Positions 25,876 through 29,138 of a stretch of DNA of 34,044 nt are shown piece after piece. The notes beneath the pieces are model-generated. The model had not been told where the DNA came from. It made no database searches and saw only the letters and a program-made list of their open reading frames with translations. The stretch's first letter is position 1, and each line of letters starts with the position of its first letter. The stretch is from Chloroflexota bacterium. Lineage in GTDB: Bacteria > Chloroflexota > UBA6077 > JACCZL01. A program made the position numbers and the translations under genes. The stretch covers positions 1 through 34,044 of the forward strand of contig JADZEM010000061.1 in the NCBI GenBank assembly GCA_020850535.1, in the 5' to 3' direction.

Positions 25876-26202
25876 TCAGTCGGGCTCGATGGTCACCCGC
25901 AGGCCGCGTGCTGCAAGCTGGTGCTCGTACAGTTCGGCTCGTTCCTTCGGCGCGCGCGCCACAACCGACGCGCCGGTCGTGTGGACTTCCCAGGCGTGCT
26001 GGTGGGCCTTGTCCCGCGTCATCCCGGGGATGATCCGGCAGAGCGCCACCTCGACGTCGTCGAACGAATGGCAGTCGCAGTCCAAGACCACGACTTTGAA
26101 CGGCCGTAGCGCCTTCGGCACGACCGTCTGATCGCGGTCGAGGTCAGGGTGCGTGATCGTCGGCGTCGTCTCGGCTCGGGGCGGCGTGCTTCGTGGAGCC
26201 AT
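25876..26202 (-). CDS. clpS: Divergent ClpS-like Clp protease adaptor
   Basis: ClpS delivers N-degron proteins to ClpAP/ClpCP. The 108-residue protein has the ClpS fold pattern: FKVVVLDCDCHSFDDVEVAL (about 35-54), WEVHTTGASVV (71-81) and an ERAELYEHQL helix. H74, the conserved binding-pocket His, is kept. The NDD motif that holds the substrate amino group is DCD (41-43), so Asn becomes Asp and the first Asp becomes Cys. F47 stands at the gatekeeper position, Met in E. coli. N-degron binding is therefore doubtful or altered. The ATG lies 6 bp after the DUF2283 stop, with AAGGGG upstream. No clpA/clpC is in the window. Confidence 0.82.
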   Translation of the reverse strand: MAPRSTPPRAETTPTITHPDLDRDQTVVPKALRPFKVVVLDCDCHSFDDVEVALCRIIPGMTRDKAHQHAWEVHTTGASVVARAPKERAELYEHQLAARGLRVTIEPD

Positions 26203-26208
26203 CTGGTG

Positions 26209-26433
26209 TCAGGCCCCTTCAGCGAGTTGACGCAGGAGCCTGGCGCGTACGCCCACCAGCGTCACGCCGACCACTTCATGCGCGGCTTCGTCGTAGCGCA
26301 GGATGACGCCATCACCAGCATCGACACCCATGGCCGCGCGAGGTGCGCCCAGCGCGAGATAGAGGACATCGGCCTCTTCATCGTAGGTCCGAGTTACCGG
26401 CTCGCGGCCTTCCAGTATCTTCACCGCTTCCAT
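26209..26433 (-). CDS. DUF2283 family small protein
   Basis: A 74-residue protein with the DUF2283 pattern: TYDEEADVLYLALG (about 14-27) followed by VILRYDEAAHEVVGVTLVG. These small beta-rich proteins have no established function and often sit in toxin/antitoxin or mobile neighbourhoods. The start is the ATG at 26433, with AAGGAG 6 nt upstream; the frame stays open upstream, but that part is low-quality and overlaps a clpS remnant. It is cotranscribed with clpS and is sandwiched between an intact clpS and a truncated one. Confidence 0.85.
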   Translation of the reverse strand: MEAVKILEGREPVTRTYDEEADVLYLALGAPRAAMGVDAGDGVILRYDEAAHEVVGVTLVGVRARLLRQLAEGA

Positions 26434-26482
26434 AGGATGCTCCTTGACCGCGACTGGTAGACGGTGTGACCTCGGTGGCCCG

Positions 26483-26581
26483 GTCCAGCAGCACGACGTT
26501 GAACGGCCTGAGCGCCTTCGCCACGACCATCTGGACTCGGTCAAGGTCAGGGCGTGTGATGGTTGGTGTCGGACTACGCAT
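26483..26581 (-). pseudogene. Truncated duplicate of the clpS 5' end
   Basis: From the ATG at 26581 the frame reads MRSPTPTITRPDLDRVQMVV and on through AKALRPFNVVLLD. Over 30 residues, 23 match the N-terminal segment of the intact clpS at 25876-26202, and nucleotide similarity is also clear. Similarity stops at the position of the NDD motif (here D-R-A), after which the frame runs into unrelated sequence overlapping the DUF2283 gene. The ClpS core is missing. It is best read as a remnant of a tandem duplication; a short translated leader peptide is a less likely alternative. Confidence 0.75.
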
Positions 26582-26812
26582 CGCTATCTGTATTCTCGCA
26601 GATTGATAGTCCTACGAGGGGTCTTCGCACACGAGCCGGCGGATCTCTGACCTGATCGAGATGTAGATGTTGCCCTGTCGATCCAGTCTGACGACTCCCG
26701 CATCGACCGTGTCGCCTCGTTCCTCCTGCTGTCCACGACTCATGGCTCCCCAGGCGGCCAGCACCGTACCGTCCGGTCCCAACCGTTTGACCGGCAACGG
26801 GCCACCGTGGCT

Positions 26813-26820
26813 GACGTAGA
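26813..26820. repeat. Target-site duplication, left copy (GACGTAGA)
   Basis: GACGTAGA directly before the left terminal repeat is repeated exactly at 27040-27047 after the right one. An exact 8-bp duplication flanking an element is direct evidence of transposition. If the true terminus is CAGGGC rather than CCAGGGC, the duplication would be 10 bp with one mismatch. Confidence 0.85.
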
Positions 26821-27039
26821 CCAGGGCAATTGCATGTTCGCTGGTGTACCCGAAGCATCATGGAACGGGCGGTCGGGGACTGAAGTCCCCGCCTACACGC
26901 ATGCCGTCGCTGCGCGACGGCCGTGGGGAACGGCAGGCACTGGTGCGACTGGAGCGTCGCGCAGCGACTGCATGACTGTAGGCGGGGCTTTCAAGCCCCG
27001 ACGCCGCCGCACGACGACATCAACATGCAATCGCCCTGG
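26821..27039 (+). mobile_element. MITE-like element, copy 2 (complete, 219 bp)
   Basis: The ends are CCAGGGCAATTGCATGTT and, inverted, CCAGGGCGATTGCATGTT: an 18-bp terminal inverted repeat with one mismatch. Inner inverted blocks follow: GTCGGGGACTGAAGTCCCCG against GTCGGGGCTTGAAAGCCCCG, and GCCGTCGCTGCGCGACG against GCAGTCGCTGCGCGACG. The whole element is thus an extended imperfect palindrome. There is no coding capacity. The CAGGGC ends and an 8-10 bp duplication fit what is known of the ISAs1 family, so a full-length ISAs1-like transposase elsewhere in the genome is the likely mobiliser; that is inference. It lies inside the NHL pseudogene. Confidence 0.9.
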
Positions 27040-27047
27040 GACGTAGA
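27040..27047. repeat. Target-site duplication, right copy (GACGTAGA)
   Basis: This is an exact copy of 26813-26820. Removing the element and one copy rejoins the NHL reading frame. Confidence 0.85.
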
Positions 27048-29138
27048 CGTTGCTTGCTGCGTCCACGGTCAATGATGTGATACGCGCGAACATGGTTGTG
27101 CCAGTGCGCTGATCATCGACCGGGACATCTCCCCAGCGCGCCAGCACGGCGCCGTCTGGGTCCAGCGCGAGTGCGGTAGCGGTGAACGTGCGGCCACGCG
27201 GCGCCCATCGATCAAGATCCTCCGCCCGCCAGCGAGCCTGCTGCCGACCATCCGGCCCGATCTTGTACACGCTCCCCTTGTCGGCGATATACACCGTCTC
27301 ATCGGGAGCCACGACGTAGTCCACCGCCTCTGGCACATACCGGTCCCCGGCCACACCAGCAGGCTGCCAGTGCTTGTCTACTTCGCCATTGGCATTCACC
27401 CTGACGACCGCGTTGCGACGGATCTGATCGCCATCTGAGTATGAGGGTCCCAGGCGCGTCGGCCGGTGCGCCGATCCTGGCGATCGTTTCGCCAGTCGGC
27501 GCGAGTTTCTGGATCTGTCCAGAGCCTTGCCAGCCACCACCTGTTGCGTAGATGGCGCCGTCTTGGTCAACTGCGATCCCCCCTGCCTGCGAAATGGTCC
27601 AGTCGCCCAATGGTGTGCCGTCCGTCGTGTACGCACGGATCAGCCAGCCACCATGCTCAGAGACGTACAGGAGTCCGTCAGCACCGAAGGTGATGAGCCC
27701 TGGCCGAAAGAGCTTTCCGAACCATTCCTGGCTGCGCCAATGATCGATAGCGTCGCCGTCTGGCGACAGTACGTGTATCGCTCCGCCGTACTGACTGTAC
27801 TCGGTGACGTAAAGCGTGCCGCTGCGATCGGCCGCCATGCTATGCGGTCGCGCGATGGGGGTGCCGGGCGTCAGCGGAGACAGACCGGCCGTACTCAGCA
27901 AGCGGGATGCACCCGTACGCAGGCTAATCCGCTTGAGTTGGCTTCTGGCGGGAAAGATGTGTGACACCGTACCGCTGCGGGAGACCGAGTAGATATAGAG
28001 ATAGCCGCCGCCGACAGCAATTGACCCGAGCGCTGTTGTCAATTCGGTCTCCACGATGGTCTGACCGAACTGTTCGGTCGTGCGCGGCTCGACCGGATCG
28101 GGCAGCACGATCTCCTGTAGCTGGCCATCAGGAGCGAGCCTCAAGACGCGCTGATAGGCCAGGTCAGCCACGTACAGATTGCCAGCCTCGTCGATGGCGA
28201 CGTCCTGCGGTACTGGTCGAAGGTCTGGTCGCTCCTGGGGGAGACCGATGATCTCCAGTACGGCACCGGTCGGTGAGAGACGTTGGAGACGTCCATTCCC
28301 GGCATCGGCCACGACCAGATTGACGGGCCAGTTCCAGGCTCTCCGGGCCGTCACCGGCCTGACCAAACTGTCCCAATGGCTGGCCAGACGCCGCGTAGCG
28401 GACCAAGAAGTACGGTTCTGGCCCGCTGAGCGGCAGCGGATCCGCGAAGAGCACGACGATGTCGCCACCTGGAGCCACGACGATTCCTCGGATCGTTCCG
28501 ACATGCTCGATGTAGCCGGGCCAGATCGGGAACGAGCCGGCTGGAGCACCATCCGGAGTGAGCTTCTGGATGCGCTTGTTGACCGGATCTCCGACGTACG
28601 CTATTCCGCTGGCATCGATGCCGACGCCGCTACGTGCGGCCAACTCACCGGGCGCGTCGCGGGCGCCAGCGAAGACCTTCCAGTGACCGGGAGTCGTCAC
28701 GTCTGCCGGTACTGCCGGCGGAATGAGCGTCACCCTGGCCGGCTCGTTCGCAAGTGCTGCGTGGGTACCTACAATGGCCACAGCCAGGACGAGACACACG
28801 ATGATGATGAAGAACCGAGCGTGGCGGGTCACCTGCCTGTTCCCGGCTCGTCTCGTTTCGGCTGAGGTGCCCGCCACGAGGCAACCTCCCGCTTGCTTGC
28901 CGGATAGTCGCTCTACCATGGAGCACCTCGTCGACTGCCGCCGCCGTAGGGGACAACAGATCTTGCCTCGCGAGCATATCAGCTTCTCGTCTCAGGTTCG
29001 CAAGTGCAGGTGCCAATGGTCAAAGAAGTGGGACATTTTCGTGTCTGCTGGGTCATTCGTCGGACATTCAGCCTATGCGGCTCTGCCAAGGCAGGACTAA
29101 GCTGTACCTGACCGTCCATTTCGGATAGGGGGTCGCAC

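Follow-up and report, generated by a model that had tools for sequence, protein, structure and literature searches.

A conserved second ClpS with an altered degron pocket in one order of Chloroflexota, and a likely mobile-element scar beside its gene

Judging from its sequence and from that of its relatives, a small gene of a Chloroflexota genome encodes a variant from the known family of ClpS protease adaptors that is real, conserved and uncharacterised, and in which the grip on the amino group of the N-degron has been lost. The gene lies in the window (that is, the whole stretch of 34,044 nucleotides analysed here), next to a truncated clpS copy that is likely the scar of a mobile element. 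The best joint explanation, to which a probability of about 0.55 can be given, is that the protein would act as a ClpC adaptor or competitor with changed substrate recognition and that the truncated copy would be an attL-like remnant of an integrative element.

Three genes follow one another in the window, all on the minus strand: (i) the truncated clpS, or stub (26581-26378); (ii) a gene for a DUF2283 protein (26433-26209); and (iii) the intact clpS (26202-25876). The interval 25876-26581, proposed for this group in the original prediction, is correct. The intact gene (ClpS-B, or the DCxC form; 108 aa; 25876..26202, minus strand) reaches 41 bits with the PF02617 profile (cut-off 23), which places it in the ClpS family, and its identification is completed by conservation and dN/dS across copies. 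At the site of xNDDxxxM in canonical ClpS it carries VVLDCDCHSFDDVE, so that D-C-D-C-H replaces N-D-D-x-x, as had been predicted. The codons of this DC[D/S/Q]CH motif (D41-C42-D43-C44-H45; 26068..26082, minus strand) align with canonical positions 47-51 in Caulobacter numbering. The pocket histidine, also expected to be kept, is found within EVHTTG (H74; 25981..25983, minus strand) and aligns with Caulobacter H79 and E. coli H66 (position from PMC12493166).

The DC[D/S/Q]CH form is present as five gene copies in four Chloroflexota genomes, which belong to three genera of one family and to another family of the same order. Apart from the window genome, the form is carried by two members of the same family, G001 (with two DCxC copies) and G002, and by G007 of the same order. 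All four genomes also have a canonical HNDD clpS, which in the window genome is located on another contig, and the proposed search for a second, canonical copy was thus successful. The data correspond to four species, all of them draft assemblies (for G001, completeness is about 86% and contamination 7%). Among the 16 genomes of the order, four carry the DCxC form; no further carriers were found in a sample of 400 genomes of the phylum, and among 84,980 species genomes that were scanned, G001, G002 and G007 were the only DCxC relatives. Likewise, no DCxC clpS was found in the viral contigs or in the phage records searched, the sole match in plasmids was an NDD copy from Miltoncostaea oceani (38% identical), and a Cys-x-Cys-His form of ClpS was not found in the literature searched.

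Over the five copies, the motif reads D-C-[D/S/Q]-C-H-[T/S]-F, with the D, C, C and H residues and the pocket histidine invariant; within it, only the middle residue and the site of S or T show amino acid changes. The dN/dS test that had been suggested for the DCDC segment gives pairwise values of 0.06-0.15 for the gene, that is, purifying selection. The original prediction considered early decay equally possible, and regarded as refutation the finding of relatives with NDD in the same gene and a chance loss here; relatives carry DCxC instead. Since the form is conserved in four genera at these dN/dS values beside a canonical clpS, early decay is rejected. The broader idea of an inactive or decaying ClpS whose pocket has been lost is, in turn, very improbable: two of the three amino-group contact positions are indeed gone, and pieces of the gene are decaying in relatives (a 3' remnant in G001, a fragment on C127 of G002), but the low dN/dS between genera, the intact reading frames and the invariant motif largely refute it. 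The intact gene is best regarded as a diverged and apparently functional second ClpS of one Chloroflexota order. The G002 fragment (G002:C127; L098 4400-4550) is a 66-base DCxC clpS remnant (QHAWEIH..ASVVARAPK) in a heavily decayed region, and it follows that the gene was copied and lost more than once.

In the ClpS of Caulobacter, Asn47, Asp49 and His79 grip the alpha-amino group of the substrate (PMC12493166). An Asn-Asp pair had been named as the grip at the outset; the literature names these three residues instead, and of them only the histidine is fixed here. Indeed, position 47 is Asp in all five DCxC copies, position 49 holds D, S or Q, and His79 is kept, so that the amino-group triad is incomplete. 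In addition to Asn47->Asp and the variable Asp49, the pocket shows the changes Asp48->Cys, Tyr50->Cys, Thr51->His, Met53->Phe and Met75->Ala, the last two of which replace the methionine gatekeepers in every DCxC copy. The alignment of five copies in four genomes therefore bears out an altered degron pocket. This pocket appears to have been rebuilt with His79 as the only amino-group contact retained and, in consequence, DCxC ClpS is not expected to bind the classical N-degrons (Leu, Phe, Tyr, Trp) in the manner usual for ClpS.

Glu79 and Glu82 in helix 3 of E. coli ClpS dock on ClpA (PMC12493166), and Lys84 is also part of the docking face. Both glutamates have equivalents in DCxC ClpS (E87..E90 within KERAE; 25933..25944, minus strand; ungapped alignment from the pocket histidine, docking on the ClpA N-domain and residue roles after PMC12493166), while the Lys84 position is Tyr or Phe. 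Canonical Chloroflexota copies have the same docking glutamates and a Tyr at the Lys84 position, and proteins with a Clp_N domain are present in all four DCxC genomes. An AlphaFold2 model built from a shallow alignment (mean pLDDT 62.5; 70-77 in most of the core) shows its structural elements in the same order as ClpS, and the PDB entries that match it best in Foldseek are ClpS structures; the prediction that the fold is kept is thus upheld by a model of moderate confidence. In general terms, the DCxC form shares with canonical ClpS (E. coli, Caulobacter; PF02617) the fold, the length, the pocket histidine and the helix-3 docking glutamates, and differs from it in the missing Asn47 and Asp49 contacts, the Cys-x-Cys-His loop and the Phe and Ala in place of the methionine gatekeepers. 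These residues suggest that DCxC ClpS probably docks on the N-domain of ClpC via the usual helix-3 glutamates, and that its substrate recognition may have changed; it would then deliver another class of substrates or occupy ClpC instead of canonical ClpS.

Second ClpS proteins are known from other bacteria. ClpS1 of Leptospira interrogans (LIC11356), with altered contacts, binds ClpA and inhibits the degradation of SsrA substrates (PMC12493166). Like DCxC ClpS, it accompanies a canonical copy and has altered contact residues, and the likeness extends to the aromatic Tyr36 at the Met40/53 position, Ala58 at Met75 and His34 at Thr51; unlike DCxC ClpS, it has lost the pocket histidine (Asp62) and has no Cys-x-Cys. 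A plasmid search with a peptide resembling Leptospira ClpS1 matched only the Miltoncostaea protein. Cyanobacterial ClpS2, also a second ClpS, has a shifted N-degron preference (PMC7966870); in contrast to what is expected of the DCxC pocket, it still binds the classical N-degrons Leu, Phe, Tyr, Val and Ile (PMC7966870).

Regarding ancestry, in an IQ-TREE tree of 39 ClpS domains the DCxC copies form one clade (support 100/99), and the canonical copies of the same genomes cluster with other canonical copies, apart from it. The sister group, with modest support (93/77), is an NND paralogue of the Chloroflexota family f56, which also occurs as a second copy beside a canonical one. Common to both clades are Phe at the Met53 position and Ala at Met75, together with Glu-Ile/Val-His and (K/L)ERAE, and hence the pocket would first have been widened or reshaped in a paralogue, while the replacement of Asn/Asp would have come later, in the DCxC branch. 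The NND clade differs in that it keeps Asn47 and Asp49 and has no Cys. In family f56 itself (L055-L063), the second ClpS with NND for NDD is conserved beside the canonical copy in at least six genomes. Another non-canonical pocket of the phylum belongs to a ClpS with HCDD in which the pocket histidine is replaced (QTQTYG; G057:C231:7268-7468, L023).

Together with the pocket histidine, the Cys-x-Cys-His loop could also form a site at the former pocket that binds a metal, probably zinc, or is switched by redox state, and that would gate the adaptor or have a structural role. C42, C44, H45 and H74 do not vary, unlike the residue between the cysteines, a third Cys and two more His (HQHAWEIH) are invariant too, and the ClpS crystal entries 9ayn, 9ayo and 1mbx contain Ni2+ or a transition metal ion (anywhere in the entry). 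Nevertheless, in a set this small, where two thirds of the columns do not vary at all, Cys/His invariance is weak evidence, and the model reaches a pLDDT of only about 70-77 in that region. Such a site, raised in the original prediction as possible metal binding through the Cys-x-Cys, is possible but rather unlikely.

The DUF2283 gene (74 aa; 26209..26433, minus strand), preceded by an AAGGAG ribosome site, does lie between the stub and the intact clpS, as described in the original prediction (PF10049 profile, 30.5 bits; cut-off 23). Its stop codon is 7 bases ahead of the ATG of the intact clpS, and both genes are probably co-translated, which would suit a functional pair of DUF2283 protein and DCxC ClpS. 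However, DUF2283 is not a conserved neighbour: no such gene was found in G002 or G007, and the copies of G001 sit on contigs other than those of clpS. The predicted partnership is consequently very unlikely, and the pair in the window is a local arrangement. A literature search on DUF2283/DUF4258 found nothing.

The stub (67 aa; 26378..26581, minus strand) resembles clpS in its first half only, and had no Pfam match of its own. Between 26483 and 26569 (minus strand) it is homologous to the N-terminal region of the intact copy and agrees with it in 23 of 29 residues and 70 of 87 nucleotides, a similarity that none of 100,000 shuffles attained; the 15 differing codons comprise nine synonymous and six non-synonymous differences. 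Homology stops after base 26483, following the Val-Leu-Asp codons and immediately ahead of the first Cys codon. A second clpS start upstream, cut exactly at the motif, was thus rightly recognised from the start; regarding its proposed role as half of an adaptor pair, the truncated copy is real, but a mobile-element scar inside the gene is the more likely explanation. Weak DNA matches coinciding with the stub (on C94 and C31 of its own genome) correspond to unrelated genes, GC-rich chance matches, and were discarded. Upstream of the stub (26574-28919, minus strand), NHL-repeat-like genes in several broken frames, interrupted by a palindrome, look like pseudogenes. The palindromic repeat (about 140 bases; arms GGGGACTGAAGTCCCCGCCTACA and TGTAGGCGGGGCTTTCAAGCCCCGAC) occurs in this decayed NHL region (26862-27005) and at both contig ends (1-140 and 33905-34044), where the assembly probably broke.

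The clearest counterpart of the stub is in G001, whose clpS locus lies partly on one contig and partly on another. L030 closes with PolX, a CCA-adding enzyme and a clpS stub that breaks off behind VVVLD; about 50 bases separate this stub from a complete clpS, after which the contig stops. L031 opens with 102 C-terminal residues of a probable large serine recombinase, followed by the 3' part of clpS and by glycosyltransferase, MraY-like and epimerase genes. In G002, the same flanking genes (65-75% identical, on both sides) enclose an uninterrupted clpS. The recombinase piece, limited to these 102 residues, had no Pfam match of its own, but shares 44% identity with a complete G002 recombinase (PF00239 and PF07508); the remainder of the G001 recombinase was not found in the bin. 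When the sites were rebuilt, attL and attR were found to share one 2-bp core (GT), with dyad symmetry in both attP (11/13, equalled at none of 10,322 other positions) and attB (6/7; 0.16% by chance), the GT-core register being the best of 174. A crossover within the LD-TG codons was dropped, given that the scan of all registers placed the GT core a few bases further. From the junctions, the intact flanks in G002 and the att dyads, it follows that in G001 the VLD codons of the host clpS are occupied by an element with an intact clpS of its own. Once rejoined, the host clpS is out of frame by 22 bases, with the VLDC codons repeated, and hence it was broken before the element arrived; the recombinase alone does not explain the stub. 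Conserved coding sites are known targets of some large serine recombinases (PMC10083194). The G001 element resembles theirs in the coding-gene target, the dyad att sites and the recombinase gene beside the junction, and differs from them in that it targets clpS and carries a replacement clpS; no paper combining clpS, serine integrase and attB was found in the literature searched. As to other possible integration sites in G002, the full-length large serine recombinase mentioned above adjoins a truncated dprA, another coding-gene target in the same bacterial family (L099 2065-4544; G002:C78), and an ORF in which a SelA-like enzyme is fused to a serine recombinase C-terminal end resembles an in-frame read-through integration junction (L102 2666-4147; G002:C106).

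The window stub breaks at most 3 bases from the codon of the G001 stub break. Of the 20 bases at and beyond this break (26465..26484, minus strand), 12 agree with the G001 junction on its element side, a score reached by 0.08% of window positions, as against about 7 for the host side. The window itself has only this left-junction-like stub: no recombinase was found in it, and its genome showed neither a clpS 3' remnant nor a member of the G001 recombinase family, for which reasons the scar reading rests here on analogy. A plain partial tandem duplication in which no integrase took part, with DUF2283 between the copies by chance, is quite possible, although it is the less favoured origin. Within the window, stub and intact copy resemble each other more than either resembles the copies of other genomes (both share VVxKALRPF), and the absence of recombinase and 3' remnant from window and genome suits such a duplication; the coincidence of both break points within 3 bases, the recombinase element with symmetric att sites in G001 and the excess of element-side over host-side matches beyond the break speak against it. 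By analogy with G001, the window stub is probably an old left junction (attL-like) whose remaining parts were deleted, at roughly even odds with plain duplication. An integrative element would have targeted the VLD codons of clpS, leaving the stub as left junction, and would have brought a replacement clpS copy, as is found in G001, of a related genus, today. A more far-reaching proposal, namely a new class of Clp adaptors in which a Cys/His metal or thiol pocket switches ClpC specificity and which is spread and repaired by serine-recombinase elements with a replacement copy, appears distinctly unlikely.

In bacteria, the N-degron pathway is defined by ClpS, whose contact residues are generally taken as the hallmark of its function. 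From Leptospira, it was already known that a second ClpS with altered contacts can still bind ClpA; what appears to be new here is the Cys-x-Cys-His form. The DCxC paralogue represents a natural experiment in which the scaffold is kept, the ClpC docking face is probably kept and the amino-group contacts are lost. It makes testable whether a ClpS may serve other substrates or purely regulate ClpC. For its part, a clpS-targeting recombinase element that carries a spare clpS would offer a small, testable case of host-gene replacement.
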